Assembly: GCA_021234155.1 (NCBI GenBank)
Contig: JAJEKV010000050.1
Location: 1,381,675-1,445,674, forward strand
Reading direction: 5' to 3'
Length of the DNA stretch: 64,000 bases
Source of the DNA: Isoetes taiwanensis
Lineage: Eukaryota; Streptophyta; Lycopodiopsida; Isoetales; Isoetaceae
A program made the position numbers and the translations under genes. The notes beneath the pieces are model-generated. The model had not been told where the DNA came from. It was given only the letters and a program-made list of their open reading frames with translations, and did no database searches. Of this stretch, positions 3,316-41,478 are shown piece by piece (the stretch's first letter is position 1; the number at the start of each line of letters is the position of its first letter).

Positions 3316-3598
3316 AGGGTTTTTCCTCTTAGGACTTAGTAGATAGGGCTCTGAGCCCGTTTTTGTATATAGGGCAGTGCCCATAGCGGAAGTAGCTGGG
3401 CTGTGCCCACATTTTGTAAAAAAATTCCACCTATAATATAAATATGCCGCTGGTTTAGTCACTACCTGTTGTGTTTGCATCTTGAACAGCATCTGTTTGT
3501 TGATTTTCATTTTCTGTGGTATGAAATGTTTTGAGGCGAAAGCCATTAACCAGTGTAGGTAATGGAGTGCCATCTAACTCAGGGCAATTTGGAAAAGC

Positions 3599-4811
3599 TT
3601 ATTTGGGTTGAACCACTTGAACAATTTGATAAGGGCCAAGCCATCGAAACTTTAGCTTACCCGGAAAATTTTTGTACCGAGAATCATAAAGAAGAACCAA
3701 ATCTCCTTCTTTGAATGTTTTTGTCTTCAGACGTTTATCATGTAAGGATTTTTGCAACTGTTGTCCATGAAGAACACGAATATAAGCATCCCTTCTAAGT
3801 TCATCCAACTGTTCCAATTGATAAACCCTTTCTTTGAGTGCAGCAGGCGGATTATGGGCTGTAGCTAGTTGAAAACGGAGAGTTGGAAGGATGTATTCAA
3901 ACGGCATGAGAGCTTCTTGACCATAAACCAATTTGAAAGGAGTGTGACCTGTAGCTATTTTGAAACAAGTATTGTAAGCCCAAAGAATAGTAGGAAGCTT
4001 GGTTTGCCAGTCAGTGCGAGAAGCGTCACAAATTTTCTTGAGAATTGTGACCGAGTTTTGTTGGTGCTTCGCCAAACCATTCCCTTGAGGATAGTAAGGT
4101 GTGCTCTTGTGATGATGTATCAGGAGATAATCCGTCAGCTCCTTAATGGTATGATTGATGAAATGGACACCACGATCACTGACCAGCTCCGTGGGGCAGC
4201 CAAATCGCGTGATGATTTGTTGATAAATGACCTTGGCTGTGCTTGCCGCAGTGTTGTCTGGAAGTGCGCAAGCTTCCGCCCATTTTGTAGCGTAGTCAGT
4301 GAGAACCAGAATGTAGCGAGACGCGGGTGTGCCGCAGAGGGAGGGTCGATGGGTCCCACAAAATCCATCCCCATTCTTTGAAGGGAAATGGCGTGGCACC
4401 AACGTCAAAGGGAAGAGCGTCACGGGCCGTGGGCCGTCCCACACGCTGACAGGCATCACACGTGCGGGTGTGGGCGTGAGCGTCTTTGAAAAGCGTGGGC
4501 CAAAAATAACCAGCAAGAAGGATTTTGCGTGCCGTGGTGTCACCATGAAAATGACCACCACCGAGCCCTTCATGGGCTTCTCGAACAATGTCTGGGACCT
4601 CATGAGGGAGAACACAGCGTCGAAGGATGGTATCCTTACCCTTCTTGTAGAGATGTCCTGCAACCATGGTGTAGTCACGGACCTCGCGGAGAAATTGATG
4701 TCGACGGGATTGTCGCTTGGCGTGAGAGAGCGTCGCGTCCTCTGGTGGAAGAGCGCCTGTGAGAAGGTACTGCTGAAAGTCATGGAACCAATGTGGGGTT
4801 GCTGTGACCAA
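3599..4811 (-). pseudogene. Ty3 integrase, catalytic Glu replaced by Lys
   Basis: DDE-type integrase. The N-terminal HHCC zinc-binding region lies at about 4,440-4,590 (REAHEGLGGGHFHGDTT, then CDACQRVGR). The catalytic core begins after a frameshift near 4,330-4,375 with LTDYATKWAEA (first Asp) and SDRGVHF (second Asp). At the third catalytic position, after YYPQGNGLA, the residue is Lys where this family has Glu; the complement at about 4,061-4,066 reads AAG CAC. The C-terminal half (QLEQLDELRRDAY, GDLVLLYDSRYKNFPGKL, RWLGPYQI) is in one long frame. The stop lies at 3,599. The frameshift and the lost Glu each would disable it. Confidence 0.88.
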
Positions 4812-4835
4812 AAAGAGTTGCGTCGGGGAAAGGCG

Positions 4836-5311
4836 TCACGAGACTCCGGTGGAGGGATCATCGCGGTGGATGCGTGAAAGATAATCAGGGACAACATGAG
4901 ATTTGCACGCCTTGTGAACAATTTCAAAAGGTGCAAATTCTTGTAGAAGGAGGACCCAACAAGCAATGCGGCCCGTGGGCGTGGATTTGTTGATCAAATA
5001 AAGGAGTGCTTGGTGGTCAACAAAGAATTTGATCGACTGCAAAAAAGATAGTGACCGGAAGCGTTGGACACGAAAAATTAAACCCAAGGCTTCACTTTCG
5101 ATTGGCGAGTAGTTTAATTTCAGTGAGAATTGAGTTTTAATTTTGCATATATTTGGTTTGGTTCGTTGTGCGCATCATATTCTTGAGAAAGAACAGCTCC
5201 AATAGCAAACGCCGAGACATCGACATGAACATGAAAGGGCTTGTCCCATTGAGGAGGAACAAGAACAGGGGCTGAGTAAGCAAAAGCTTCAAGCTGTTGG
5301 AAAGCAAACAT
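4836..5311 (-). pseudogene. Ty3 RNase H domain
   Basis: The segment at 5,120-5,311 reads YSAPVLVPPQWDKPFHVHVD then AFAIGAVLSQ, the start of the RNase H-like domain with its first acidic residue. The segment at 4,836-5,087 reads FFVDHQALLYLINK, then FEIVHKACKSHVVPDYLSR, its end. The two lie in different frames, and the middle of the domain near 5,090-5,120 is damaged. It would degrade the RNA strand during reverse transcription. Adjacent to RT on one side and the integrase zinc finger on the other, as expected for Ty3 pol. Confidence 0.8.
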
Positions 5312-5479
5312 CCGCTGGGAATTCCAAGCCCGGTGGATTCATCACCCGTGAGTTTATGAATGGGATCCGCAATGGCTGCTAGTCCGGGGAATGAAGGTGG
5401 AGTAATAATTGACCTTACCGGGAAAGAGCGTGTCTCTTTGATATTGGTCGGTGCTTGAGCTTTGAGCACACAACCGATT

Positions 5480-6140
5480 TTGGCGGGGATCCGTGGTGAT
5501 ACGCTTGGCGACCACGTGCCCTAACAGAACACGGAAGTGGCATAAAAGGTGCATTTCTCTGGATTGAGACTAATCTTGGGACTCATCACATTTACGAAAG
5601 ACGAGTTCCAATTTATCCAAATGGTCAGCCATGGAATCAGTAGGCGGAGAAGTCATCTTGAAAAATTTGCAAGAAGGGATTTTCCTTCATAAAATCATGA
5701 AAAGCGGAGAGCATGATACGTTGAAACGTGGATGGAGAGTTTGATAATCCAAAAGGAACCACCTTGTAGGCAAAAGTGCCTACCGGGGTGGTGAAAGTAG
5801 TCTTGAGTTGATCAGATTCTTTGATTGAGATCTGATTGTAGCGGAAAAAACCATCCATGAAGGAGTACATCTCATGTCCGGCCAACCTCTTCAGAACCAC
5901 AGTGCGTGAAGGGAAGTGGGAAATGATCGCGCTCGGGTGGCACGATTGAGTTTTGGTAGTCCACGCAAACGCGGATCTTTCCATTGTGTTTGAGTGCAAT
6001 GGCGATGGGGCTCACCCATTGAGAATGTTTGACCTCATAGATCAAAACTGCGGCAAGGAGTTTATCAATTTCCGCCTTGGCGCGATCCGCGGTAATTGGG
6101 GTTGGCCGATCTTTGTCGTTGCTATACGGGGCGTGCATCG
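5480..6140 (-). pseudogene. Ty3 reverse transcriptase
   Basis: RNA-directed DNA polymerase. The N-terminal part (5,872-6,138) contains IDKLLAA, HSQWVSPIAI and GKIRVCVDYQN. A second frame (5,637-5,999) contains MDGFFRYNQI, KTTFTTPVGTFAY, VPFGLSNSPSTFQR and the catalytic box FQDDF; both catalytic aspartates are kept (codons at 5,652-5,663), with Gln at the x position. A third frame (5,354-5,554) continues with RVLLGHVV and KVNYYSTFIP, the typical thumb/connection segment. At least two frameshifts separate these blocks. Family assignment is firm; activity is excluded. Confidence 0.88.
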
Positions 6141-6599
6141 ATTTGGTAGGAATGGTGAGTCCCCAAGGCTTTGTTGATTCCCGAAGGTCTCTGTAGCTCA
6201 GGCGAAAATGTGTTTGAACTTTTTGAAGAGCGTGATGGCCTTTACGATAGGGTGTCGGAAGATTTGCGGCTATTCCGGACGGTGATTGTTGCCCTCGTCC
6301 ACAATCTCAACTTCGAGAGTCGAATATGTGGAATAACTTCCGTGTCTGGACAATATGGCGGGGAGGTTGAAGCATAACGGGATCGTGGCTCTGCGTGGTG
6401 AAAAGAGAGGTTCTTTGAGTTTCATCAAGCGAGAGGTTGCTTCATGGCCGGCGTGTACATCTCTGGGAGCTGCGGGGAGGTTCGGCATCGAAAAGTGATC
6501 AACACGTTGGATGCGGTTGCAAGGAGCAGGTAGGGGTCAAGCAAAGGCAGCCCAACTGGTCACGATCAAGCGTCATTTCTCCCCAAGGATCAGCATATT

Positions 6600-7560
6600 G
6601 GGGTAGGATGATGAGGCGCACTTCGCGGTGGAGCTGAACTTGATAGATATTCGGGAGGCGTGAGGAATCGGTGCCGGAGAGAGGGTTCAGCATTGTCGGC
6701 CGAAATGATCTTCCGGTTTCCGGGTCCATAGTGGCATTGAGGTGACCATCTGTGATGACTAAGCGATCCGTGGCCCAATAATGGATACTTTTGGCTGGCG
6801 GAGAAAAGGTCCGCCGACCAACATTTCATAATCACACGGATCTTCTCAGCCTTCCAAACACCAAATTCAAGGGAATCGAGATCACCAATGTTGATGTGAA
6901 GAAGAGGCGTGACGCCTTGAGGTCGCGTGATATGGCCATTGGCCAATTTGATGTCATATGGGGCACGATAGAGTTGTTTGATGCCCATTTGTTTGCGGAG
7001 TTTATCCGTGATGAGATTGACCGCACTACCTCCGTCAATTTGAACATGATTGACTTGTTGATTGCCCACCGTGGCATGTAAAGTGGGGGTAGAGGTAGCA
7101 ACAGCCCCAACCAAAGCAGTCGGGGAGTGGTGGCGGTCCTTGAGCGGGGATGAGTTTCAAAATTGTTGCCAAACTTAAAGGAATTTTGATTTTTGCTAGC
7201 TCCTCTTGGAGTTTCAGAGGCACATGAGAAAAAGGATCTGTTGGATCCACAGGTGCTGGAGTGCGTGGTAAGGAAGCAGCAACTTCTTTGAGTAGGTCAA
7301 CCTCGGCAGCTATATTTGGATATGTCTGAGAGCGTGGAGGTTGAGACGTGGAAGGTGCTTCTTGTCTTTGTTGAGCTCTAGTGGTGGCATGAACATTAGC
7401 CAACGTGCGGCCTTCAGCAGCTTGCATGAGGTTCAAAATGCTTTGGCGAACTTTAGGCATGACATGCGGCATAAGTTTCTCCAAGTGGGGTGCAAAGTGA
7501 ACCTTTTTTCGCGTCTTCATGAGGAATGGTGTCATTCGCAAAGGCGGGTTGCGTGCCATT
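6600..7560 (-). pseudogene. Ty3 pre-protease linker and retropepsin-like protease
   Basis: Aspartic protease that would cut the polyprotein. The segment 7,140-7,560 encodes a basic linker ending in a conserved-looking helix (KLQEELAKIKIPLS). The protease core reads HVQIDGGSAVNLIT at about 7,010-7,045, where Asp-Gly-Gly replaces the commoner Asp-Ser/Thr-Gly; this variant also occurs in plant Ty3 proteins. It is followed by KLANGHITRPQGV and HINIGDL, fitting a retropepsin fold. The frame then degenerates toward 6,600. The linker and protease frames do not join without a shift, so the product is not made from this copy. Confidence 0.7.
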
Positions 7561-7599
7561 AGGAATAATGGTTAAGGGGCGTGGCATACAGTGCGGCGT

Positions 7600-9384
7600 G
7601 AAACCAAACCAACCCAATTTGATGGCTGATTTGGAGGATTAAGAGCACGAAAAAATTTCTTCACGTGCTTGTTGATCCATCCGAGGTTGATTGGCGGGAG
7701 GAGGAGGTTGATAGCGTGATTGCTTTGAGGCGCGAGGTGGCTTCGAAGAAACGGGGCCAGACGCCTTGTTTTCGTTGGCAATCCGAGTTGGTAAAAGCGT
7801 GAGGCGGAATCCCGATGTGGTCCGGTTGGTGCCGGGAAGCCGCACTGAACTTGTGGAAGTTGAGGACACGCCGTGGTGGTATGACCCCATTCTTGACAGT
7901 GATAACACTGAACTTTAGAAGGATCAAAAGGAGGGCGTGTGTTGGGTCCCGTTGTTGCTCATGTTGCCGATAGAGTTGATTGGGTTGCGCTGCGCAGTGG
8001 TGGCTGGCGATATTGCGATTATTCTTTGAGGTGTGGTTTGCACTTGATAAAACCAGCTTGTTGCGGAAAGGTGTAGGATGAGTGCGAGTGCACTCTTCCG
8101 TGGCATGATTGCACATGTTGCATCTTTTACAATGAGGCGGGCCATTGGTGGAGTTGCACTCATTCGCCAAGTGGCCTTGATATTTGCAAATATGGCACCA
8201 GATCTGACTGCGCTGCGGATTGGCGTGTTGAGGTTGGACAGCAGTCTGTGGAACCATGACGGGTGGAATGAAAGGGAGCTCCTGAAGAGCCACGCCTCGG
8301 GAGGAAACATTGACTGAGTGATTGACAAGGTCGATAGCCTGCTCCAAAGTCTTGGACCTTGTGTATTCGATCATGAGTCGGATAGTTGGAGGAAGTCCTT
8401 GGAGAAACCAGACCAAGATCGGCTCGCGTGTAGGGGTACTCCTTGAGTTTGCCGAAAGCGAGAATGTGAAGGCGACCGCAAAATCGAGGCGGACTCCGTG
8501 GGCTCTTGTTGAAGGTCATTGAGTTGATCATCATCCGTGGTCCCATAGTGAGAAAGAAAAGCAGTTCTCATTTCTGAGCAATCTTGTTTCCAGTGGCTTT
8601 TGTTGGACATGAGCCATTGATAAGGGGAGCCACGCAGTGTGGTGGAAAAGATGTGGAATTTCAGTTGAGGTTGCGCATGACCATTCAGGACAGCCAGAGC
8701 CTCAAATTCTTCCATGTGGGCCTGAGCACTTTGGTCTAATGGTTTGCCTTTCGTGTTGCCAAAGGTTGGATAAGTCAGCTTAAGGGTCTGAAAGGTAGAG
8801 GTGAAAGTGCTTGGCTGGACAGGAACTGGATAGGGAGTGTATTGAGGTGGAGTTGGAGGTGGTATAGTGCCTGAAAGACCCTGATGAAGGGGTTGCTGAG
8901 GTGGAGGTACTGGAGGTGCCTGATCATTGGTTTTGAGGTCTGTAAGATTGTAAACAGGAAGAGCGGTGGGAAAGGTAGGGAAGGGAAATTCCTGTGGAGG
9001 AGCAAAAGAGACATGTGGATATCCTTGCCCACCCGGGGGAGATGATGGTTGTGAAGGCAGAGGCGTATGGCCAGACGAATGATGGATGTAGGCATGTTCT
9101 GGGGTATGAAAGTAAGGTTGAGAAGGTTGAGCCTGATAGGGCTCCGGATAGTGATGAGGTGACTGAGGCTGTGAGCAATGTTTGCATGCTTGGGGCGGGG
9201 AACTGGGACGAGACAGGACCCGAGGGGTGGGTGGCGCCGACTGAGCCCTAGACCGAATGTGGCCGCCCTCAATGTCATAAGCAGATCCATACATGTCGCG
9301 AACAGCTTCCCTTCGATGATGGCGCTCCAAGCGAGATGCCGTCTGGGAAAGGAGTTCTTCTGGCGTGAAGTTTCGGACAGACAT
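7600..9384 (-). pseudogene. gag: Ty3 gag with three CCHC zinc knuckles, frameshifted
   Basis: Nucleocapsid/capsid precursor that would package element RNA. The chosen start is the ATG whose complement lies at 9,382-9,384, giving MSVRNFTPEE; an upstream in-frame ATG also exists. The first half is Pro/Gln/Ser-rich, followed by a capsid-like block containing TLRGSPYQWL and LSHYGTTDDD near 8,560-8,640. A frameshift near 8,400 moves the reading to another frame, which holds two C-x2-C-x4-H-x4-C knuckles (WCHICKYQGHLANEC and CKRCNMCNHATEEC, about 8,090-8,210). A third knuckle (CYHCQEWGHTTTAC, about 7,865-7,910) sits in yet another frame. Three knuckles are more than the one usual for this superfamily. 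Confidence 0.8.
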
Positions 9385-9600
9385 GGCGACAGAAGAAATG
9401 AAAATCGAATCAGACCCAGCAGCGGCGACAGTGTTTGTTTTGGGTTCTTGGCATACGTCTTGCAGCAGCAGTCCATGACCGCCGGATGCTACAAGCCAGC
9501 CATGCTCAAGATCATGAAACAAGAAAAAGACAAAATATGTACAAAGAATGCGGGAAATGTGCGCCAAATGAGGCTCTCCAAATTTGAGATCAAACCTGAG

Positions 9601-9800
9601 TACATCTGAAGAGGCTCCGGTCTAATATAGTGTAGACCGCAAATCTGAGCCGTACACTAACTAAATCTAATCCCTACACTTATGTTAATCTAATCATGCC
9701 AAGTGTCAGTCTGCCACCACTGACACCTAACATGTGCATGCACCTAACATGTGCATGCACAATGTTAACCACTAGGTGGTTAACATAAATATGCCAAAGA
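9601..9800. repeat. cluster of palindromes and a 17-bp tandem repeat
   Basis: Three structured motifs occur in 85 bases. GTGTCAGT (9,703-9,710) pairs with ACTGACAC (9,719-9,726). A 17-bp unit is repeated in tandem at 9,726-9,759 and contains the palindrome GTGCATGCAC. An 11-bp perfect stem with a 3-base loop lies at 9,762-9,786. The cluster sits between the Ty3 gag leader and a LINE-like 3' end, so it may belong to an LTR or to a LINE 3' UTR. Confidence 0.6.
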
Positions 9801-24229: not shown

Positions 24230-24470
24230 GTGAGATTTATCTCCAGCAGGCCTAGTTGGCCAAAGCTCTAGTCCATGTAGTTGCAGCTACGACACATAAC
24301 TCGGGGGGCATATAAATCTGGCAGTTGCATTTGGGTTAGTTGTTGGAGGCCGCATTACAGTGCTCAGAAGACTTCTATACTGGATTGCTCAGCTAATTGG
24401 AGCAACTCTCGCATCCATTTTATATTGCCATTATGCATCCCATAATTATTGTTCTGTGAGTGCCAAAGAG
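24230..24470 (+). pseudogene. TIP-like: aquaporin pseudogene (tonoplast intrinsic protein type)
   Basis: Water/solute channel of the vacuolar membrane in its intact form. SPAGLVG near 24,240 and then, after shifts, [29 protein letters not shown] and [20 protein letters not shown] match the second and third membrane segments and the first half-helix loop of TIPs. The pore motif Asn-Pro-Ala is Asn-Leu-Ala here (codons at 24,315-24,323). Two frameshifts flank GGH, and the rest of the gene (second NPA loop, helices 4-6) is absent. A CACTA transposon starts about 125 bases downstream. Confidence 0.7.
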
Positions 24471-24593
24471 TTCAGGGAGTTCTGCCAGCAGGTATTACTT
24501 CAAACTTATGCTAATGCCGATTTTGTGCAGAAAAATGGCATTAATCTATTCCAATTGTTTTGGCATACTCTACATCCAAATTAGTGGGGAAAT

Positions 24594-24605
24594 CACTACA
24601 AGAGG
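24594..24605 (+). repeat. CACTA left terminal inverted repeat
   Basis: CACTACAAGAGG; ten of the first eleven bases or better match the inverted right end. Preceded by the AAT duplication. Confidence 0.85.
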
Positions 24606-25849
24606 ATGGGGGTATAGTGTCAACCCTTGTGACAAGTCCTAGACGTAGTGTCAAATTTGTGTTCCATCACTACTATCTTGACATTAATAAAGTGCTTGTG
24701 TTGTGTCAACATTGTGTCTAATGTGATAGTGTCAAATCTTTTGTCAAAAGCAATGACCTCCTTTGTCAACTTCTATCGCATGTTAAGCAGGTCATTGCAA
24801 CAACTTTTGAACAATATTTAAGCCAAGTTGTGCCAACTTTTCTAAGACTTATAACAAACGATTATTCAAATTTTATCTAATATTTTAACTTAACTTTGAG
24901 GAGCATTTTGTCACCTTATATTGCAATTTAAGTGGTTGTTGCAACAATTTTTAACAAATTTATAACTCCATCATTATAACATTTCTATGAGATTTTATAA
25001 TATAATGCCATCCAATTTGTATCTAATATATTAGTAGAATTGAGTCATATTCATATATCATTAAAGATTTAGTATTGTACCAAGGAATGTTACTTTGATA
25101 GAAAAGACTCATCCGACATGGTCGATGAAGGGAATAGATAATGGTGAAGTGGTACCTCTATTAACTTGAACAAGGAGCAAATTTATAGGAAGATAAAAAA
25201 ACAATACTCACACCAAAATGATCTTATATACCATAGTAGTCATAGCAATAAGATTAACAATGTTGATTAATCACATGTGGCAATCCTATTAAGATCGCTC
25301 AATATCCTCTATCTCATCCTCTCATCTTATAGATATAAAACAAAGAGCCAAATTCCTAATTGCTTCCTGGATGGATCATGTGCATGTTCTGGTGAATCTC
25401 TTCGCCTTCCATATATAACTCTATTATGTCCAAAGAATGAATTGGCTTAATTGAATGGAGATCCGAGCACATAATCTTTACTCTTTATCAACTACCTCTC
25501 TTTGTGAAAGTTCTATGAATGGAGATTCTAAAGGAACATGTTCATCAAGATCATCCTCAAGCAAAACTACACCTTCTCGAGATAACCTTCTCTCGTGCAT
25601 ATATTTTCACTCCTCCTCATCAACAAAGATCATCATCATTAGCATCATCATCATCATTAGCATGATCAAAGTCATGGAGAGCTCTTCCATATTATTTTCA
25701 GCTATAGATAGATCAATTACATGCCGAAGCTCTTGGTTGACACGTATGACAATCCACCGCTTGTCTCATTAGATTTCCTATGGAAAATATCTCGCCGACT
25801 GACTTTGAAAAACAAAAAGTGTTCCTTCATTTCACCAATACCTTTTGAA

Positions 25850-28450
25850 GAAATCCACTGAAATCCTGATGGATGAGTCCTAACCGCCAAGGTTGCAAAT
25901 TCAAGAAAGGAGAGAGAAGGGATGCACACCAATATCCTAGAGCGCAAGCTCCCCAAAACAAAGGCAAATTGAAATTGTATTGAACGTATGTATGAATACA
26001 AGATATGTGCGGGCAAGTAGGGGGCCAATAATCGCCTCCCGCTACCAACCACACATACTATGCCGCAATCAATTAAGGCAAGCAGGTGCCGTGAGCTAAT
26101 TAAAGCAAGTGGATGGGCTGGTGTAGGTGCTTCATGAAGTGCCGATTCAATACTACAGTCAGCACCTTAGCGTGTCGAGGTCACGTCAGTACAAGCAATG
26201 TCTAGCAGCAAGATGGTGATCCGAGTATCATATATCTTCATTAATTCTCCTTGATGAGAGGTCACCATCTCCATGCTCAACCCCTCCTCCCCGAGATGAG
26301 ATCCGAATCTATCAAGACCAATATTGTCGATGTCAGCCAAAGAGCCTGGCTACTTGCGCCAAAGGCTTAGTCAAGAGATCTCATGTATTGTCCCGTAGGA
26401 ACATGCTCAATCTGAATCTCGCTATCAGCCACAAGGTCCCTTTACAAAATGATAATGCTTGGGAACATGCTTAGGATTTTGATGTCGAATCCCCAAATGA
26501 GCACCAATCAATGCCACCTTTGTTATCCATGAGCATCCTTTTTGCCGGGTCCGTGGCGCGCTGCCCAATGCCCCACAAGAAAGTCCTTCAAACCAATGAT
26601 TTCACCGTCACGATGCCGTGCAACATACTCCGCCTGCTGATGAAAGAGATACATGGCCCCTGCTTTCTTACTGATCCAAGCAGCAATGATAGCATTGCGC
26701 GTAAAAACAAAATGCCTGATGTGGACCTCGAGTTGTTCATCATATCACAAGGAGGAATCACTATATGTCACACGAAAAAGCATCACTATTGCTGCTATAT
26801 GTAAGGCCATAATCAGCATCTTTAAGTAGCGGAGAATGTGCTTTGGCCATTTTGCTTATGACCCGGATCTCGGCCAAAATTGGCCGAGCTATAACAACAA
26901 ATGCAATATCGTCTCCGTGCAAAACCATGCAATACATGAGGCTTCGCCAATCAATTGTTTAAATGGAACTTTTGCCATAGAAAGATCGTCAAAGATCGGG
27001 ATTGTGGGACAATCTTTCTTAGTGAGAAGAGTACCGATTCATAGGAACTTTAGATGGATTGTAATCACCATGCCAGCCAAGCATTTCTTCAATGTAATTC
27101 TTTTGAGAGATATGAAGAACCTGCTGTTCGTCTCTGTAATTCGTAACCCAAACAATACGGTGAAGCTTCACCTGTCTACTATTGGAAACTTAGCAAAACA
27201 AGCCTTGTCTTGAATTCAGCAATGTGCTCATTATTGCTGCTTCATGAGGCAAGGAATCATCCACATACAAAGCAATGATGAGTAAGAACTTGCCTTTGAC
27301 GACTCGATGTAGATAGATTAGAATCAAATCTTACCGGGCCGAACTTTGGTCTTTGAAGAAAAGAATCTATGGTCTGTACCAAGCACGGATGCTTGCTTTA
27401 ACCTACAAAGTGCCTTCGCTAATTTGCATATTAAATGCTCGGGCCAAATTTCTTTGACATAACCCTCGAGGTTGCTTCATATATATATTTCTTTCATCAA
27501 GTTTGCCATTAAGAAATGCCGCTGGACATATCCGCTTGATGAACCTCAAGATTATAATGAAAGAATGCAAGAAGAATTTTAATGCTCATCATCTTGACCA
27601 TCGAGAAAAATGTTTCCAAAGTAATCAATGCCATATTGCCGGGTTGAAACCCCTCAAGGTGCAACCAAGCTGCTTTGTAGCCGCTGATGAGCTTACCGAT
27701 GGAGCTTGCATTTGTAGACCCATTTGTTACCAAATAACCTTCCCGATCATGAGGAAGAGGAACCAAATCCCAAGTGCCATTTTTGAACAATAGAACTTAC
27801 TCAAGCAGCCATTACGAAATAGCTTCACGATAGTCACGGGTTCACCGGACAATAGCAAAGACCACAAAACCTATAATGCCGGGCATAATTTCAAAGATAG
27901 AAAGTAAACTTCCTTTACTCCTCGACAAGTTCTTCTTCAACTCCTCCTTGATCAGGATGACAAAATCACCTCCCGGATCGATGGGCCAAGATCTCCTCCC
28001 CGGATCGGATGTGTCAAGATCCGCGGCCGGATCGTGAAATGGTGTCAGAAGCGCCGCAGGCCGGACCACGCAGTGTGCCGGAACTCAGCCGCAGTGCCGA
28101 ATATCGAAATCAATCCGGATGGATTGAAGCTATGCATGCCATCCGTTATCCATGCGTAGATATCAAGAAATTCCACATTAGGAGTTTTTGAACCTTGCCG
28201 AATGTCAAATATCTTCATAAAAAATAACATCACACTAACACAAAGCTTCGTATCCGACTGACCAGCCTATAAATCCATGCTTCTCAGACCGGGTCGAAAA
28301 CTCCAAAGATCATTTCTTGCCGGTATGCCTAAGTTTCTTACATTTGCTTTGGGAATAAGCATAAAGGCAAAGACATCCAAAAAGACACGCAGTTTACACA
28401 AATTAGCCATTACATACCATTTCACTCATTGGTTCCATCAAGCCAAGAAC
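25850..28450 (-). mobile_element. Ty1/copia retrotransposon remnant nested in the CACTA
   Basis: Minus-strand pol in copia order. The RT N-terminal part (27,509-27,790) reads NGTWDLVPLPHDREGYLVTN, then FFSMVKMMSIKILLAFFHYN and LEVHQADMS. Next come AFLNGKLDERNIYMKQPRGY and LICKLAKALCRLKQAS, and an intact YVDD box (codons at 27,256-27,267) in ALYVDDS. RNase H remains follow (GSLMYCMV near 26,950; KKAGAMYLFHQQAEYVA near 26,650; YHFVKG and EIQIEHVPTGQ near 26,420). A purine-rich tract then precedes a probable 3' LTR at about 25,850-26,230. Stops and shifts are frequent. A second LTR and a clear integrase or gag were not found. Confidence 0.75.
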
Positions 28451-31080
28451 CAAATGTGATAAAAAATGTAAAATGATGAAAAAGATGAGCAAATCCAAAG
28501 ATACGCGGCCAAATAGGGATAGATGAGGCTTAATACTTACCCTGCTCACAACCAGCGTATCAAATATTGATTTATCCAGCCTCCCAAGATCGACTTAAGG
28601 AGCTGGCTCCTATTCCACACAATTAATCCATGTATTATTAACATTCCACATAAACCATGCTAAGTATCAGAAAAACACAAATAAAGAAAACGCTCCAACA
28701 ATCACATTAAATACTAGCAAGAAATCCTATAAGGGTACTCGTATATAGGTAGGGAGCAAAGATAACGCCATAAAGACTTAAAAGAAAGGCTATATAAAAG
28801 TTAAGTTTCCAACCTAAACTGAGTCTCCGAGCAACAAAGCACAATCTTAACCAACTAATCTTATCAATGGGTTTTAGAATAAATGGTGAAATATGAATAA
28901 TGAATCCATACAAATGGGTTTTAAAGGGTAAACAGTAGTTTAGTCAAGGTAATTGTATGGCTTGAAGTGTGACAGTATGGCCTGAACTCAACATAGAAGG
29001 AGCAATCGTAATCGGGATTTGGTAAAACACTGTGCTTTTCCATGGTCTTGAGTCATATCCAAGCCCGGTAGATCCCGACAAAAGATTAGGCCCACCGGCT
29101 CATCTGGCTTTGTCATGCATTTGAACACGTGGAAAATACCTTCTAATAACACCCGCTCAGCTGGGCTCAAAGAATAGCCATATAGAGTTCTAAACCTTGT
29201 AGTCGGACTAAACACGATTCTTGTGTAGATAGCAGATAGCCAATGGGAAACTTGAAAGCAAAACCAAAGATTCTTCCACACAACTAAGACTAGTAAGTAA
29301 ACAAATGACTACCAAAGCATCACGGATTTTCTCATGGATCCTGCCCAAATAACCCACTTTACCTCTGATTAAGCTCTTTTCTTCTATAACTAGGATTGAA
29401 ACGCTGGCCAAAAGCTTCCGGGAATTCTTTTGATACAAAAGACGCTTTTCCCTTTTGTTATGTTATAACTCAAAAGTTGAGGAAAGTATCCTCACTTCCC
29501 TATTAATAATAAAGATCTTTCTAATCTTAGCTTTACTATTTAAGTTCATATCCCGTATTTCGTCAAGTAGCTAGCATAATACGAACATCGATTTACCTTT
29601 AATTTCAACCCTTTGATAATCTCTTCCATAATTAATTATCTCTAACCTATGGTTGCAAACTTTAAACGCTAACCTTCCATCAACCCCCTAGGTGTGTCAC
29701 ACACGCCTACTTATCCGGGGTTCGCTCATGTTTCCACCTTCATGAATGACACCTTGTGAGCCACTAATGTTTTCTCAAAATGACTAGGCAATACCCTCAG
29801 AGCACGAAAATGTAATTTTCTAGTATTCTTGTTATAAGATCCCCATTATGGTACAAAAATATCATTAACCCAACAATGAAATCAGAATATTAGAAAAATG
29901 ACTCCTAGCAAGTATACAATGAAGTGAATCTTCCTAATATTAGCCATCGACAACCTTAACACTATTGGTTCGATACCAAGAACCAATAATCACACCATGC
30001 ATATCAATATAGAGTATATTTCCGTTCCATTACGCATCATTGGTTCTATTACACGCCGGCGGCTAATATAAGATCCCTATTACAAAGAATCATTACATCA
30101 ATATGAAATCGAGAAAACAAAATGATAAAAGATGAGCAACCCAAAGATAGCTTCATAAATTCCGATTCGCTCTGAATATTGCCCGCTATCCGGGCCTGGC
30201 CACATTTCCGCATGCTGAATGACACCTCGCGGAGCCACTAATGTTTTCCCAAAATGACTAGGCAATACCTAAAAAAATAATGAAGTGAGCCTTCTAATGT
30301 TCTGGTGTTGAGTATAAGGTTCCCATCAGGTACAAAAATCGCTACTCCCTCGAAAATGTAATACGACTCCAGCGCATAAATTCAAGAAAGCTTTCTATCA
30401 CTAGCCATTGCACAACATTGGTGTCTATTGCCTAAAACACAATATTCACACCATACACAATGGTATAGATAATGTGCCAGGCATGCAATTTTGAAACCGC
30501 ATGGCTCAAGTAATCCCGTAGGTATAGCCAAGGTCCGAAGCTAGGCAAAATTGCCTCAGCCTCGCACATTCTCTAATGTAATGCTTTGGGGCAGCAGGTA
30601 TTAGCTGAAAGCCACTTCCCAGACATTACGAAAACCATTGCCCACCTAATGAATATAGAGATTACACACCACTAGTTTTAACAAGGTAATATAAGATCTC
30701 AACAATGGTTTTAATACTAAGGTAATATTAAAATCTCAACAATGCCGATTCATCATTACCCCCAACAATGCAATCGAGAAAAGAAGAAAATGATGAAAAA
30801 TAGAAAACAACCCAAAAGAAGATACGTCAAACAGAAATATGGCGCGAGAAATTACCTGGTTCACAGCGAGAATAAATCTTTGAATCATCTTCTTGAATAA
30901 CCACTGCCTATCTAGGGTTTTGTTCACAGTCGCCACAATCACCAAGAGTCGCCAATACGATCAGTAAGTATACAGAAGCTTCAAGCAACGCAAAATGTTA
31001 GCAATAAATTTTCCATTTTTGTCTTTTCCTTGCATTTATGCTGTTCTGCCAGCTTCTAACGTCTATCTATTGGTGTTTAT
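28450..31080. repeat. diverged tandem duplication inside the CACTA
   Basis: Blocks recur with about 500-base spacing. GAGCCACTAATGTTTTC, then CAAAATGACTAGGCAATACC, lies at about 29,760 and 30,234. AAATGATGAAAAAGATGAGC-like sequence lies at about 28,470, 30,120 and 30,790. A GTAA-flanked segment lies at about 28,545 and 30,860 (minus-strand 5' splice-like). Minus-strand open segments (28,988-29,281; 30,736-30,945) look somewhat coding but are unassigned. Confidence 0.45.
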
Positions 31081-31089
31081 AGTGTCTTC

Positions 31090-31288
31090 TAATAGGCCCG
31101 ACAAGGGCAAAAATGTGTCGACAGGAGTCTTCTGGAGATAAGCTGGAGAGTTTCTGGGCGGCCAATGTGCCAGAAGATATTTTGGCTGCTCTTATGACGA
31201 AATTGCAGAAACGGATCCAAAGAACTAGCAAAGGCCAAGATGATTCAGAAAAGAAGATGCAAAAGAAAAAAGAATGGAAAGGAGAGGT
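31090..31288 (+). other. possible exon, Lys-rich, unrecognised
   Basis: Bounded by TTTATAG (before 31,081) and GAG|GTAAAAC (31,288/31,289). Encodes LESFWAANVPEDILAALMTK, then KSKG-type basic sequence with KKMQKKKEWKGE. It lies on the same strand as, and 590 bases before, the receptor-kinase pieces, but does not resemble that family. Confidence 0.3.
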
Positions 31289-32386
31289 AAAACATTGCTT
31301 TAGTTTCAAGCATTTCCTCTGATAGATAAAACTACCTGCAAATTTGGGCAATTAGTTTTAATCTGATAGATAGCTTTAGTTTCAGAGACAAAAGAGGACC
31401 TTACATCAGAAAAATAGAGCATGCAACTAAGTGTAGAATGTTATCTGTTTTGATTTCACAGAATACCACTCCAATTTGTATGAAAACTATGCATGAGCCC
31501 CATATGTGCATATTTTTTAAGGAGATGAAATTTACTTTTGTTTAATCTTTTTTAGAATTCCAGGAACTATTATGCATGAATTGATATGCAATTTAGAGTT
31601 CAAGCATCATAAAAGACTTTGAACAACAAGAGGGAGCCAGCTCCATTGTAATTTATGCTTGTTCTAGCTCAGGTATCTGCTTGCAGAGCTAGCCACTTTG
31701 TGCGGCAACATTTATATCACCAGTGGGCTGGCAGAAGCTAAGGTCCACCACCTTGTGATCATAAGTCTGCTGCTTCTGCAGTAGGACCTGTAAGATTCTT
31801 AACTCTCTACATGCTCTTTGACAAAGTCCATTCCTGGAATAATTATGTATAAGACTATTTTTGGCAATTTACAGGAACATTGCAAAACAACCAATTTTAT
31901 GGGTTGGATTCCCTCGTCTATGTTTGCTATATCCCTTCCTTCAAGTAAGTGTTTTCCCTCTTGGAGATAAAAGAAGAACAGTGCTTTCAGCAATCAACAG
32001 TAAAGCTTTTCGTTTTATTCTTTTGCATATAAATAAATGAAATGTCAATATTTTGATGCTGTAACTACAAAATTTTCTAATTAATTACCTTTTTGGCAGA
32101 GATCTCATGGTAATCTATTCAGTGCATCCCCTGCTTCCACCTCAATCTCTTTTAGCATCATCACCTTCTCAAGGTGCTACAACTGGACTTCCTAAGCTGA
32201 GTCCTGCAAGTGGATATGTTTCACCTTAATATCACTGTTAAAGTAAACAGGCAAATGCAAAGACTGTTCTGAAATTTGGTGGAAGAATTAACTTCGGTTT
32301 GGTTGTAGCATCTATCCTTGCAATAGCTGTGGTTGTCCTGATAGTGATGTTCTTTCCTCGTGAGGATATCAAAAGATGATAGATAT

Positions 32387-32424
<38 letters not shown>

Positions 32425-33154
32425 TTATTAACGTCATAATGAAGACCCGCCAAGGGTCTATGAGACCCGTATAACATAAACAGAATTAAGACCTTCAGGA
32501 GGGAAACCCTCCTGTTATCTAAAGTATGGAAACAAAATATTAAGTTTAACAATTGAAAATCAAAAATCTGTTCAGATAGGATTTGATGGAGACAGTCCAT
32601 TCGCTCCCGTGGCTGCTGCAAAATACTATAATACCTCTTGGCCTGCTTTAGTTGCTTGCTGCTTGGCCTCTTCTGAAAGACTTTTTTATGTTTCCATGGC
32701 TGCTGATCGTTTTATCTTCTTAGACAGTGCCAAAGTTACCCCTTTAGGGTCAGGATACTTCCTCTGTGGTGAGTCTAATAACCTCTTATCATCGCTTTGT
32801 CTCAGATGAAAAGAAATCAGTTATTTCTGTTTGCTTCAGGCCCATTGGATTCTTTTTGTTTGAGAATACTTCTCCCTTTCTAGAGATAGTTCATATACAA
32901 AGTGAGATACACATTTCTGATCGTAATACTCTACCAGCTGTCGAGAGATGTGTGGATCTCTAAAAAGACAATGATATCTGCCTCTAATAATGCAATAGGT
33001 TGGGCAGGTAAAATAAAAATGTTCTTCTTAATTCACCATGTTTAGATCGCAATACTACCAGATCCTCACGACCAATCTTTTCGGCCTCTACCAACCTCAA
33101 TCTCCAGCTGGTGAGATGACACACTCTAAACTGCCCCATAGAGTATCTCACTCT

Positions 33155-34850
33155 TTATTCAGCAGATCCATCTAAATATCCAGGTCTTATAATGAACCCA
33201 TCCACTGATATATTTAGGAAGTTATCCTTATAGAATTTCTTTTTAGCAGGCAGCTCTTTGATGGGATTCGTCTCTGTATTTGAAACATACAGATACTCCA
33301 AGTCATGGCGTATAAGCTGATTGATTTCTTGCTGAGTAAAATTCAGATTGTCATCCATTATACCACACAGTGGCGCGTGGGATATTTCCTCAGCAGAGAA
33401 ACCCATCTCCTCAAACAATTTAGATGTCCTTGTGAACTAACAGCGCTTACCTTATTCACAATGTTTTAGACTTACACATATGCCAGCTTAGAAGCCTTCT
33501 TGACCTTCTTGTGACTGTCCAAGACGGTGTAACTTATGGGCACGCTTTTCACTGCTTGGCAAAGGTAATCTCACCCTTCAGAGGTTTTGCATTAAACTCC
33601 AGCATTATATCATAAAACAATGTTTGCTTCTAATCATTCTAGAGAGAAGAGAATTTGGAGCCTTCTAGTTGACCCCAGTCATCGGGCTCAGAGGTCAACT
33701 CCCCCATATTTGTGCACTATATAAAGCTGCCGCTTCACCAAACGCGTCGCAACAGGAAGAGCTTTGTATGAACATCTTGGAAATGGAGTTGGTAGCACTG
33801 TTTTTCTCCAGCTGTACAAGAGAAGCATATCCTTTTTGCAATCCTTGCCTGACCAGCCTCCCCCTCAATCTGAATAGAGGGCCAGCAAACTCTACCCCCA
33901 AATAGGTGTATGTAGAAACAATTTCTACAGGTTGTCCTTGGAAAGTAAAAGAGTTATTTTTCCAATTTTCCAAGAGGTATTAAAAACCATCACTTTGGTC
34001 TTGCTGAGATTTACTTGCAGCCTTCTATCTTTTGCAAAAGGCTTCTAGGGCAGCCAAATGTTTTGGAGTCCTTGAGGAGATGGGTGAGATTAGAACCACA
34101 TCATCCCCGTGATAGAGCAAAATGGGAATGCATTCCTGAGCGAAAGCATGGAGCCTTCTCCTACTTCTAAACACTGAACAAAGCTTCAAGCCCATCAATG
34201 TAAAGTCCAAATAGAGTAGGAGAGAGGGGGGGCAATCTTTGTTTAACCCCAACTGTAATTGAAAACTTCCTCTGAAAACTGCTCATCTATTTTCACTCTG
34301 CCTATTACATTTCCTCGTATAATGTCAACACTGCCCAGATCAGCCTGCGGAGAAAGCCCTTAACGTTTTGAGCCTCTGAAACAACCTGTTCAGGAACAGT
34401 ATCAAAGGCTTCGAAAATCAACAAAAACAACAATAAACTTTACTTTTCCTTGCCTTTGCTTCCTCAATGATTGCCCTTAAAGAAAAAATATGATCAATTG
34501 TGGGAAAAGTTTTTCCGAAACCAGCTTGTCCCTTTGGCTCTAAGGCTGTGATTTTCTGCAAAATCACTATGACCATTTCCAATGCGATCCATACAGTTTG
34601 CTATCATGCCCAATCATAATTAGGCTTATAATTAGTAGGATCTATAGAATCAAATTTTATGGTGGATAGGCTTTATAACATTATTTGACCAAACCAGCGG
34701 AAAACCAATGCAAATAGCTTCATTAAATAGATCTGCAATCATTGGAAAGCAATGTCTAGCCCCATGTATAATCATTTCAGCTTGCAATTCTTCCCAATCT
34801 TTTGTTTCTTTCCTGTGTTTAGCTTTTGTATGGCCCTTCTTTCCCAATGA
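33155..34850 (-). pseudogene. LINE reverse transcriptase and C-terminal region
   Basis: The N-terminal RT block (34,650-34,847) reads ADLFNEAICIGFPLVWSNNV, then IKPIHHK. The catalytic block (34,025-34,252) reads LLLYLDFTLMGLKLC, then PILLYHGDDVVLIS, where HG replaces the Ala of the usual YADD. The C-terminal block (33,695-33,973) reads FQGQPVEIVSTYTYLGVEF and AAALYSAQIWGS, the typical after-RT segment. Frames differ between blocks. Confidence 0.75.
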
Positions 34851-35359
34851 GAGAGACCGTGAAAAGGTAGAAGTTTGAGGCTCCTGATCTAGCTCACATC
34901 CTGAGAACTGTTGGTTCTTAACATCTAAGAGAGAGTTTGCATATGCTGACCATACCCCTAAATCTTTTAAAGGACAATCTGATTTTTAGCTGCCAATTTC
35001 CCTCCAAAACTGCCCAGAAGCATTACTATAAAGAAGATTTAGCATGTGTTCTCTTGTTTTGGATTCGAAGCCCTCTTTTATGCCGTGGTCAATCTTTTGT
35101 ACTCAGCTTTAAATTTCTTCTGGCAGGTACTGATATCAGGGCTGAAGTTCAAAGCATGTTTCAACTTCCTGTGCAATGTTTTACAGTCATGGTCATACCA
35201 GCCATTTTGAGGCATAGACCCAACTTTTTGCCCGCCATTGTTCTTTAAGTGCTCCCTAACAGAATATGGAAAGCAACCTTTTAGAAGCTTCTAGTATGGC
35301 ATAAGATAAAGCCAGCTTTATTCTAGTGATCCCTTCCTCAATACCTTGGAGGCAAGAAT

Positions 35360-36050
35360 TCAAAACATCATTATAGATCGTGTCCATGCAGTGATCAAAT
35401 TCAAAATGATAATCAAGTATCCTATCGAATTGGTTTTATTTCTGCTTGGGTATGTGCCATTTAATGGTGAAACTAAAGGAACATGATCTCCTTTTAAAAA
35501 ATTCTTATCAATGTAAAAAGGAATCAATCCTACATATGAAGTCAGGGAACCAATAATATAGTCCACAACACTATTTCCCCAGTGAAAAATATGTGTGTAT
35601 TTGGCAGAATCAGGCCATTGGAGGATTGTATATAACCAGGTTATGAATCTGCCCAAGATTCAAAAAAGATGGCGCCCATATTCAGTTATGGGCATTCTCT
35701 TATATCAGCAGATGTTCTTGCTATACCTAATTCCTTAGGATGAATCTCTCTCGATTAGAATAATAGGGTCGAGCTAAAATCCTCACTGAGGTGGACCTGT
35801 TCATCTCTTTGTTCGCATTAAACTCACTCAGCCAAATCACATCTCCACAAGTGGAAAATTCCGCACATCCATATAGAGTGCTTGATATGGGAGGCTCCTC
35901 TTGAGTCAATGGAACGCCCTCTTGGTCAGCATATTTGAGGACATGGAAGGATGATAAATATGAAATCTCTCCTCCTGGTCACGCCCTCTGGTTTCTCCTG
36001 CTGCAAGACGGGCCAAAATTTCATCGCAAGTATTAATGCCAGCTTATGAA
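35360..36050 (-). pseudogene. LINE endonuclease fragment
   Basis: The block at 35,727-35,909 reads CGDVIWLSEFNANKEMNR, a GDFNA motif with Ser-Glu at the catalytic place. The block at 35,360-35,656 reads HWGNSVVDYIIGSLTSYVGL, then KGDHVPLV, matching the S-x-x-DY and SDH ends of the domain. Upstream bases to 36,050 give GRDQEE- and LPCPQI-like remains in mixed frames. Confidence 0.65.
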
Positions 36051-37002
36051 AACTCATTCATCCACCGCTGATGGCAGCAATGAAGGAGAGCTGGGAGCAG
36101 ATAGATATGCCTGGGCAGAAATCATTTTCTTTTACTTCTCCTGCTTTGGAGGTCGTAAACCCCTCAAGAAGATAGGGGTCCAAGCAAGGAATAACAAGCA
36201 AGACCACAGTTGTAATAGCTGCTACAGAGCATACTGTAGCAGACCTTCAAGCAGCTACAAAACAGCTTTAGTCAAGATAACCTTATCTGGGAAGGTGCCT
36301 TTTGGACGAAAGTATATATATATGAGACTTCTAGTGGAAAATGCAGGGACTTCCATTTTATTGCCTCGCTGCTTATTGCAGAATCTGGTTTGTAGTGTAT
36401 ATACCATGGCATAGGAGGGTCGCTATGGTTACCCAAGGCATATTGTGGCAAATCTTCTATAAACAAAGGCCGCAGTAAATGATTTTATTTGCTATATCAA
36501 CTTCAAAGACTCATAGCCTCACAAAATATTAGGATTTTCCTTATGTAAAATTATGCTTTTTGGGGAACTCGCTTTGGTCTTCGTGCATCATGAATAAACA
36601 CTTGTCGAAGTTTCCTTTAGGTCGGGTTACCGCAGGCATTTCATATATAGAAATAATCAATCCTTGTCACTAAGAAACATTTATGCATGAGAAACTTTCA
36701 CTCTATGCTTATTAATTAAGTTGCATAGACTTTTTTGAAGGCAAGAATGATCTCAGATTGTATTCAAAGATAAGAGTGTTTACACATACAAAGTGAGTCC
36801 AGAGCTGCTATCACTTCTCCAATCCATGATAAGTGTACCCGCACTCTAGCCCAGCATTTTGGAGCCCTTCAACTTCTTCCACAGGGATACTATAGGAGAG
36901 AAGGCCCGCCTCTAGGCTAAATTTTATAAAGAAACGTCTAAGACCTTATTACGTGAGGCTCCACAATAGGCCTGAGTAGATATTTTAAGCAATCGGGTCA
37001 CC

Positions 37003-37139
37003 GTGATATACGTTAATCTTGTCTCCACCGCCCAGGATCAAGAGCAGGGTTCAAGTCAGCCGCCTCCCATTCAAGAATGGCCACAAGAGATCTTAGTGAG
37101 AAGGAGCTACTTGAAGCATTCTCCTAAAAAATATCCTCA
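37003..37139 (+). other. kinase-gene flank with basic open segment
   Basis: An open segment starting at 37,003 runs into the INSLDIPLSS kinase block. The part before it (SYLKHSPKKYPQRTAMV) does not align with the family and may be intron or filler. Confidence 0.25.
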
Positions 37140-38793
37140 AAGAACTGCCATGGTGTCTATACGCATTAACTCGCTCGACATTCCATTATCAAGTAGTAAG
37201 CATTGCTGTGTATAACCTTCTTCCAAGCAATAAGAAAATATGACAGCTCACAACCACATCCCATCGCGACAAAGGAGGGCGCGGGCTTTTTCCCACAATG
37301 GCACGGCCTCCCTAGTCTCAGCCTGTGGGCGTGTTCCCATGGCAAACCACTGTGAGGCCTATATTCCAGTATCGAAGTGGGAGCAGCCATCATTCAAGCC
37401 ACAATCCTCCCCTTGCTGATAAGGAGGGACATTTCACAAGCTCAATCCAAAAATGTAAAATGACTAAAGGTATTCTCGTAGCTCTTGGTCGTGGAATAGT
37501 TTTCTGACTCTCACCACTTCTATCCAAAACTAAGACGAAGTTCCTTAAAGTTGTGTCTAATATTGCTCACACATACCAATATTATTGAGCTTGTTGGCTA
37601 TCAGGTCGGCAGCATGGACAACGCTCTTTTGGTCTATGATTATATCGCAAGTGAAGGAATGCCGTATGAAATGCCGCGACAGACCGGGACGGAAGTTCAA
37701 CAAAACTGGCCATGGAACCTCGCTGATGAAGATCGCTTGGGAACCGCAAGGGCTCGAGTATGCTACATAAATTTCTCCAGATGTAACAAGATATCTCAAG
37801 CAACATTGCACACTGACCTCGCTAAGCTTATCTTGCAGTATTTGCATGAAGTATGCTTGCCTCAAGCATCACCCAATGTAAATATCAAGTCAAGAATATC
37901 CTTCTTGATGATGAGTCAACCCATGTGTTTCGTGATTGTGGGCTTGGTAAATATCGTGCCACTAAGCTCAACGCCAAGTTTCACAAATACTTTGACTCTT
38001 TGTCATCTAATTTCCAAATATGTATTATCAAAGCAAAATACCTAGATATATTTATCTTTTTGACACAAGTCAAATGCAAATATTGTCTCAAATTAGCTAA
38101 TACTTAGATGCAAACTTGTCGCATTGTTATTAGTTGTTTTACGCCTAGATGGAATATAGCTATCATGTCGCTACTTAGCTTGTCATGATGATGATGCTAT
38201 ATTGTTATTATGTGCTATATTTGTCTATCATAATGTGGTCACAACATTAGTTATTCTTAGACATAAACTGTCACAAACTTCTTACTAGTTGTCTTAATGT
38301 GGATAGAATTATAGATGCTACTTGTCACTACTCAAGGCGATGATGATGCTATGTTGTCATTATAGGCTTTATTGGTCTATTACAAATGTGGCTCATAATA
38401 CTAGCTATTTTTTTTAATACAAACTAGTCACAAATATTTATTGGTTGTCTTATTATAGATGTATTCTAGCTAATATTTTTCACTCAGCTTGGGTTATAAT
38501 GTTGATGTAATGTTGTTCAGATGGGCTGCTATTTATTTATCACAATATTGTTAAAATATTGTCACAAGTTTGATATCTCTTTTTAGACTACCATGTAGTT
38601 TCAAATTGTTTTTGTGTCAATATTATGTCATAAATTGAAGCTACAAGCTTGACAATAACATTTGACGCTATTGTGGCACGCTTGTGACAAATGATCACGC
38701 ACATATAGTGTCAAGACCCAGACAATAATTGAGTTTTCGTTGTCTTGCTTGTGTCAAGTAAAACGGACGTTACACGAGACAATTATAGGTACC

Positions 38794-38805
38794 CTTCTTG
38801 TAGTG
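38794..38805 (-). repeat. CACTA right terminal inverted repeat
   Basis: The complement reads CACTACAAGAAG; followed by the AAT duplication. Confidence 0.85.
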
Positions 38806-39931
<1,126 letters not shown>

Positions 39932-41478
39932 CTACATTCATGTATTTCACCTGCCGGAGTTTAGTTCCAAAAGGGGTCTTACACTAGGAAAATAAAATCT
40001 AACGTGTTCTTGAACTTTTGTACATGATCTTTGTCCTTTGGTGGTTTTTTTATTGTAGCATAGAAAGTACATACATGGAAAAAGAAAGTGATCTATAAGG
40101 AAGGCTATCCATAGGTGTGATGGTAGAAAATTGATTTTGACATTTATAGCAAGCTTCCAAAAACCTAATGTTATTGTGCAGTCAAAGGCAACTCACTTGT
40201 TAGTTCTACGGTTATCTATGCTCACTAAAGCTATATGGACTGTAATTCACGGGATGCTATGGAGTATTCAATGAGTTGGATATTTGAACTTGCATCTTCA
40301 CAGCTTTGAAAATGCTTCATCCTTTTCAATTCATGTTATAGTTTATAGATTGCATGCCAATTCTTTCACATGTTGTTGAAACGTCGCTTCACATCTATTC
40401 TATTCTATTCTCTTTTCGACATGAAGTTCCTGTGGAAGTAAGCACAAAAATCATGTATATTTGGACGTACAGTGGCTATATGCAATTATCTACTTTGTTA
40501 AGCTAGATATGTTGGCTATAGACTATTGGTCCTGGGTAAAATAACAGAAGCACCTAGTAGATACCGTCCTAGCTATCTACACTAGATTCTAGAACATGCA
40601 ACTCCCTTGCCATATTGCTTTTAAAATAAGGTTTACGAGATTTCCAATGATTTCCCATCTACAACCTACAAAAGCATGATAGGATCCTCAGCCTTAAACA
40701 AAAAATATTGCTTTTTACAAAAATGATCTTCCCATATGCCCAACATTCTCTCAATCTAGATTCTTATATCTCTAGAATGATGTTCCGTCTTAGAAATTTA
40801 TACATATATGATACAATGTGGTACAATTATTTGGCCAAATATCAATCTTCGCTACAAGCACCTTTACCATGATGTACAACTGTCTAAGCAAATTACACTT
40901 CAGTCATGCTTATAATGTCAATTCGTCAAATGTTTTTGTGTTCACACTGCGTTAGGATGTCAACATTGCCACAAGGCCTACCAAGAAAGATGTTGGCAAC
41001 ATTTGGGCCTATAAATAATTTGACGACTGTCAGACTAAATAGTGTTTTTGCAATGGTAATGGTGGTAATAACAAGTGTATGCCTATATTCATACAAAAAA
41101 TGGATCATACACAATCATGTTCTTGCAACATGTTGATGTATATAAGACAAATTTCTATACTTCATGATCCTTGTAATATCAATCGCTTGAAAAGTCAATT
41201 CATTACGTTTGAAATATGTTTTAAACCCATGATCAAAGCAATATAATTGCATCGTGACATCTTTTTTAATTAAAGCAATAATTCAAAATCCATCTGTATA
41301 ATAGGATTATTATCGCTAAAAAGCTCTTATAATGTGATAACTGACTAGGAAGCAAATAACAAAAAACACTTTGGATCTGGCCTTGAGATCCATTCCCCCT
41401 TCTCGTTATAACCTCCACCCAACACTTCGCTTTACTGCTAATTAGTAGGGAGTTAATGCTCAAGGTTGATTTAAAAGG

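Follow-up and report, generated by a model that had tools for sequence, protein, structure and literature searches.

A probable Pack-CACTA transposon in Isoetes taiwanensis carrying a captured fragment of an SRF-type receptor-kinase gene

Structure and family of the element

The stretch of DNA analysed here, referred to as the window, comprises 64 kb of contig C1057 of Isoetes taiwanensis (C1057:1381675-1445674). It very probably contains a Pack-CACTA transposon, a non-autonomous element of the CACTA (En/Spm) type, whose subfamily carries a fragment of a STRUBBELIG-RECEPTOR FAMILY (SRF) gene from contig C1064 and spread after an ancestral capture of this fragment. The transposon proper occupies positions 24594-38805 of the window (14,212 bp). 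The first-pass annotation of the same DNA had proposed a CACTA element with an AAT duplication at 24591..38808; these coordinates are correct when the duplications are included, and the ends, the subterminal repeats and the relatives described below agree with the proposal.

The element is bounded by the inverted decamers CACTACAAGA, at 24594-24603 on the plus strand and at 38796-38805 on the minus strand. These are the only two exact matches in the 64-kb window. When one mismatch is allowed, the pattern is found 8 times, against a mean of 4.02 in shuffled sequence, and 8 matches were reached in 4 of 100 shuffles. The trinucleotide AAT stands at both borders. Its left copy (24591..24593) is recognised as a target-site duplication from flank matches that overlap by exactly 3 bp at six paralogous places, and its right copy (38806..38808) from direct reading and the same flank comparison. 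The left terminus, CACTACAAGAGGAT, with the subterminal region of the family extends over 24594..25064 on the plus strand, of which at least 24594-24981 is common to all ten relatives that were fetched. The right subterminal region and terminus, TCTTGTAGTG, lie at 37988..38805 on the plus strand and are defined by the GTGTCAA motif, the right-end copies and the relatives. The motif GTGTCAA/TTGACAC occurs ten times in the window, every time inside the element, and eight of the ten copies fall within 300 bp of its left end or 800 bp of its right end. The element thus displays the CACTA-type terminal inverted repeats, the 3-bp duplication and the short-motif subterminal repeats of the CACTA (En/Spm) superfamily.

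The search for further copies with the same termini, which the first-pass annotation had suggested, showed that both ends are high-copy in the 1.66-Gb host genome. The first 307 bases of the element were used for the left-end search, with 40 of 443 candidates scored, and the last 306 bases for the right-end search, with 40 of 141 scored. The scored left-end copies are 88-93% identical, the window itself excluded, and the right-end copies 82-89%. Sixteen proper pairs of left and right ends within 25 kb were present in the scored lists, namely the window and 15 others, with lengths of 2.1-20.9 kb. Ten of the 15 were fetched, and all ten show the CACTACAAGA termini and identical 3-bp duplications (ACT, AAC, TTA, ATA, TAT, TAT, TCC, GGT, TAA and TGA). 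The two relatives flanked by TAT have common flanks and represent a duplicated region. Despite their common ends, the relatives differ widely in their interiors. An internal region at 29703..31467 is common to part of the family, with long matches in the copies E1057b, E1061, E1050, E1032a and E1032b and partial ones in E701 and E723. One sister element, E1082 (C1082:2445496-2451668), has captured a piece of an RCC1-repeat gene (PF00415, E 1.8e-29).

Transposase sequence is present in the family as remnants. Some relatives contain antisense pieces of a TNP2 transposase: DUF4218 was found in E723 (E 2.7e-15, 56.6 bits against a cut-off of 27), and DUF4216 was found just below the Pfam cut-off in an open reading frame (ORF) of E701 (E 8e-7) and in E1050 (E 3e-6), with 29.9 and 28.2 bits, respectively, against 30.6. 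The window copy retains a remnant of the C-terminus of a TNP2-type transposase at 25618..25886 on the minus strand, which is 86.6% identical to positions 1092-1359 of E701 and, judged by its DNA homology to relatives, overlaps the DUF4216 stretch in part. Transposase_21 was not among the Pfam matches in pieces of eight relatives, whole elements not being covered. In the genome at large, at least 167 Transposase_21 matches came from the 150 of 2311 candidates that were scored, many of them with open frames. With so many such genes in the genome, supply of a transposase in trans is plausible, and the movement of the subfamily may have been driven by a TNP2-type transposase provided by other CACTA elements.

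The captured fragment and its donor gene

The cargo of the element is one contiguous genomic fragment of 1.98 kb, with introns retained, of an SRF-type leucine-rich repeat (LRR) receptor-kinase gene. Its exons are hard to see in the window copy and clear in the donor gene and in E1061, a 7.7-kb copy on contig C1061. The latter reads NIANNQFMGWIPSSMFAIPSFK, a proline-rich and membrane stretch, ATNSFSQDNLIGEGALGRVYKAE and LRHTNIIELVGYC, and a kinase domain was found in it by Pfam.

The parent gene, which the first-pass annotation had proposed to look for by alignment, was sought with 1981 bases of the E1061 cargo as the query, and all 27 candidates were scored. Outside the element family, C1064:2005424-2007403 matches best, with 94% identity over 1.98 kb, introns included. 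The locus that contains it, L040, has no CACTA ends in 5 kb, and its exons extend past both breakpoints of the captured piece. Upstream it encodes an LRRNT_2 domain (Pfam) and LRR-like stretches, about six of which can be counted by eye in its frames; downstream its kinase sequence, also recognised by Pfam, continues beyond SFGYSAPEYAMSG. The LRR-like, proline-rich and membrane stretches were read in the frames, and the exon boundaries were set by eye. The further exons on both sides and the lack of CACTA ends indicate that L040 is a resident SRF-type gene. The HRN and SDCG motifs of the donor, in place of HRD and DFG, are presumably typical of the SRF family. The family name was assigned from characteristic motifs and from the order of domains given in the available text of PMC1855328, not from a tree.

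The donor breakpoints lie at positions 1501 and 3480 of L040 in E1061 and E1050, the right one at 3479 in the window copy, and this coincidence points to one capture. The captured piece contains a few bases of one LRR exon, the whole last LRR exon, the proline-rich and membrane exon, and the kinase to just past SDCGLAAL. It lacks the start exon, most of the ectodomain and the C-terminal part of the kinase. The first-pass annotation had described the capture of ectodomain, membrane segment and kinase of one SRF-type gene. Capture from a single gene stands, but the ectodomain is reduced to the last LRR exon and the proline-rich region, and the kinase is truncated after SDCGLAAL.

In the window the fragment is present as three parts, all on the plus strand. 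The first (31783..32391) comprises the last LRR exon (about 31876-31945), an intron, and the proline-rich and transmembrane exon, and matches L040 1501-2076 with 88.4% identity. The second (35907..36735) comprises the juxtamembrane region and the start of the kinase and matches L040 2086-2929 (82.7%). The third (37428..37989) comprises two kinase exons and matches L040 2922-3479 (83.7%). The same cargo is carried by the window copy, a locus on contig C114, E1057b, E1050 and E1061, which are five loci at four insertion sites; C114 and the window were counted as the same insertion on the basis of the right flank of C114. This distribution indicates one capture that was followed by spread. With a host gene fragment between CACTA ends, a mobilised cargo and no transposase domain found in the window copy, the element has the features of a Pack-CACTA transposon.

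Four SRF-type paralogues of the donor were noted: L053 (C1064:1906225-1909880), L049 (1929962-1933626) and L050 (1960188-1963852), all three no farther than about 100 kb from the donor gene, and L046 (C952:16658976-16662807). All four lack approximately the same 0.94-kb stretch (L040 2366-3306), which encodes the kinase N-lobe. In L046, L049 and L050, but not in L053, the frame continues across the joint and ends in QDLVAYLNYCRCLHEVCLP or QDPVAYLNYCRCLHEVCLP.

The SRF piece is adjoined, in the opposite orientation, by a piece of a second, probable host gene (31619..31785, minus strand). It matches C1056:20218352-20218823 with 97% identity, inside an open frame of 578 amino acids in which no Pfam match was found. 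The stretch LPCAACGVLCFTTICIVQP of this frame is reminiscent of demethylases of the REF6/ELF6 type. The junction between the C1056 and SRF pieces has a 3-bp microhomology (AGG), and the junction between the SRF piece and the terminus has about two extra bases. These bases would fit end-joining. In E1061, foreign pieces match three places with 97% identity, on C1056, C1048 and C1028; those from C1048 and C1028 are absent from the window copy, E1057b and C114. We propose that the SRF piece was captured once, in an ancestral element, possibly through aberrant excision or through repair by end-joining between elements lying close together.

Later insertions are nested in the window copy. A 3.5-kb insertion (32392..35906, minus strand) splits the membrane exon; it is present in E1057b, which itself has an internal gap there, and in C114, and absent from E1061 and E1050. 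Read by eye, it resembles a long interspersed nuclear element, and no Pfam match was found in one ORF and three frames of its cleaner copy. A retroposon-like insertion of 0.7 kb (36736..37427, minus strand), with a run of 37 T at its left end in C114, is present, among the five cargo loci, only in the window and C114. A relic of a copia-type reverse transcriptase (RVT_2; 27244..27737, minus strand) was detected in two frames below the Pfam cut-off (E 6.8e-7 and 0.065), and E1061 and E1050 have no matching sequence at this place.

Insertion site and flanking sequences

The left flank contains, close to the insertion, an exon-like stretch of an aquaporin (MIP) gene (24300..24488, plus strand; PF00230, E 1.5e-11) that belongs to a multicopy flank family. 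The flanks were searched separately, the left one up to 24593 with 40 of 75 candidates scored and the right one from 38806 with all 21 scored. Apart from the window, 21 right-flank matches were obtained, seven of which start at the first base of the flank; the remaining 14 begin farther in and are uninformative on empty sites. One of the seven, at C114:223028, adjoins the right end of the element and is the same insertion as in the window. At the other six places the left- and right-flank matches overlap by exactly 3 bp without exception: C114:193081-193083, C1034:34023622-34023624, C1078:9241086-9241088, C907:3698496-3698498, C246:109554-109556 and C1057:1446501-1446503. We read these overlaps as paralogous empty sites that appear, from the match coordinates, to hold a single AAT. 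Empty sites with one AAT had been named in the first-pass annotation as a check; six paralogous ones agree with it, while an allelic one was not seen. The window copy is situated next to the aquaporin exon, AAT is duplicated around it, and two later insertions interrupt its captured fragment. A long (GA)n microsatellite lies at 39500-39980, immediately to the right of the element, and long open frames resembling gypsy-type retrotransposon proteins were seen by eye at 1918-9621.

Several observations weigh against a Pack-CACTA element with an SRF cargo from C1064. No Pfam kinase match was obtained in the window letters, in whole frames or in smaller pieces, and a PDB search with the kinase exon of the window gave only E values of 0.45 and 0.8. 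The window copy likewise has no Pfam match to a transposase in six-frame scans and in smaller pieces; the six-frame scans of the whole element also missed the copia relic that smaller pieces later revealed. The DUF4216 scores in the relatives are below the Pfam cut-off, though that of DUF4218 is well above it. The true parent gene might be a close relative of L040 instead. The frame of L040 shifts within 36 bp after a GTAAG at the boundary of membrane and kinase stretches, which calls for a short intron or a frameshift, and in view of this frame change the gene is not claimed to be intact. Finally, none of the six empty sites found is allelic, all being paralogous, and their single AAT is taken from match coordinates only.

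Alternative readings

The state of the window copy allows two explanations. Over 5406 aligned columns it has 455 private substitutions, against 8 in E1057b, 30 in E1061 and 124 in E1050, and its private small indels number 140, against 3, 19 and 42, respectively. Much of this apparent decay is probably consensus error, on mixed evidence; real decay is the less likely explanation, although it keeps a tangible share of the probability. C114 represents the same insertion, as seen from the right flank, the 0.7-kb insertion and seven shared changes, and yet it is far cleaner, with 12 private differences against 113 for the window in 1334 columns. Where C114 has a run of 37 T, the window has 6. The window copy also shows more identical runs of 50 or longer than expected (10 against 1.3), a surplus that is small in E1050 (9 against 6.1). 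In two of three comparisons, tetramers with CG make up most of those altered most often (75-100%) and AT-rich ones most of those altered least (5-15%); CG density inside the element is not reduced (17.1 versus 15.7 per kb). These points argue against real decay. On its side, C-to-T changes are raised at CG sites in the window copy (10.8% against 3.2% for A/T transitions), the right flank has a lower CG density than C114 (17.4 versus 27.5 per kb), and a 672-bp stretch of the left flank shares 95% identity with a paralogue, which indicates that the noise is not uniform. Adjacent differences are also in excess elsewhere, in E1050 (30 against 5.7 expected) and in E723 (8 against 2.9). The lower CG of the flank and the excess of adjacent differences in E1050 raised the probability of real decay to the level given here.

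A test of sequence context gave a mixed picture overall. Among the excess differences of the window element CG was enriched (odds ratio, OR, 3.5) and CHG was not (OR 1.1); in the right flank the OR was 6.8 for CHG and 3.1 for CG, and in E1050 it was 4.7 for CHG and 0.7 for CG. CG was also enriched in older left ends, those of E1066 (OR 9.7) and E723 (OR 4.4). The clustered differences and the shortened T run of window 24594-39430 relative to C114 are a probable assembly consensus error. E1050 (C1050:1639661-1653524) is poor in CAG and CTG, with 5.4 and 3.2 per kb compared with 10-15 in E1061 and E1057b, and richer in CCG and CGG, which is another sign of motif-linked error or mutation. The frame breaks of the window contig require better sequence before gene death is inferred from them.

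It is improbable that the captured fragment is more than a passenger, acting either as a transcribed and spliced truncated receptor or through small RNAs directed at the parent SRF gene. The five exon-like stretches of E1061, with boundaries set by eye, are each free of stops, and their indels are multiples of three. The pairwise comparison of E1061 with the donor gave synonymous and nonsynonymous divergences (dS and dN) of 0.039 and 0.007; the first kinase stretch used (K1) may include some intron. Fragments in soybean Tgm-Express1 are spliced as exons, according to the available part of PMC1947982. Against a function, the cargo has neither a start exon nor the C-terminus of the kinase. E1061 is missing 34 bp after the membrane stretch, including the apparent GTAAG splice donor, and read-through reaches a stop within a few codons. 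E1057b retains the splice-donor site, but the 3.5-kb insertion interrupts its membrane exon. When changes were polarised with the paralogues, the stem had 2 nonsynonymous and 3 synonymous changes, E1061 none, and E1057b 5 nonsynonymous and 1 synonymous, while 6 changes in exons stay unassigned. A search for purifying selection in the captured exons met with a low pairwise ratio but with no support from the polarised changes. A more specific proposal, that a mobile, multi-copy truncated SRF receptor would serve as a decoy, or small RNAs would act, against the parent SRF pathway, is more doubtful still. E1061, the most open copy, has no apparent splice donor, so a decoy would depend on a different copy or a different way of splicing; its odds, like those of the broader non-passenger reading, were lowered for this reason. 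The best reading is that the fragment is probably a passenger with no function under selection.

The view that an SRF gene (or pseudogene) is resident at this locus and has CACTA-like ends by chance, which the first-pass annotation had named as a refuting alternative, can practically be dismissed: the window does hold SRF-like exons in the correct order, but the ends and the 300-800 bp beside them recur in the same arrangement in all ten fetched relatives, the six paralogous empty sites argue against it, and the SRF-type gene that extends past both breakpoints sits on another contig, C1064, with no CACTA ends. Continuous host flanks, named there as a second ground for refutation, were found at the six paralogous places, with the 3-bp overlap expected of empty sites.

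Comparison with known systems

The first-pass annotation had considered the capture notable. It is less so, since the accessible parts of PMC8903248 and PMC1947982 document well that CACTA elements capture genes, and the element is a clean example of this known process and not a new one. No report of an SRF gene in a CACTA element was among the papers listed by the literature searches made. What makes the case unusually complete is that the donor, the breakpoints, the junctions, the sister copies, a second piece and the paralogous empty sites are found in one genome, which opens the mechanism of capture to direct examination.

Pack-CACTA elements with coding DNA are described from Arabidopsis and maize, the maize cargo often coming from several loci (PMC8903248, in its available text). 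A capture route through tandem insertions and aberrant excision has been proposed and is reviewed in PMC13317346, as far as its available text goes. CACTA elements of Chenopodium hold gene fragments as well (PMC8978399, accessible part). As in the Pack-CACTA elements of PMC8903248, non-autonomous ends surround host coding DNA, target duplications are present and the cargo has spread. Unlike them, as far as the available text of that source describes them, the window copy additionally contains the remnant of a transposase and later insertions nested within it, and its donor has been mapped to the base in the same genome.

The receptor kinases of the SRF/LRR-V family are defined by a SUB domain followed by six LRRs in the available text of PMC1855328. 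The donor resembles the family as described there in its LRR N-terminal domain, LRR-like exons, proline-rich region, membrane stretch and kinase. The window element, by contrast, contains no more than the central part of a gene of this family.

Soybean Tgm-Express1, another close system, contains five fragments of host genes, and these are spliced as exons (PMC1947982, available text). Both are CACTA elements with unrelated host gene fragments that retain exons and introns. The window element differs from Tgm-Express1, as portrayed in that part of the source, in that its fragments come from an SRF-type kinase gene and a second, probable gene.

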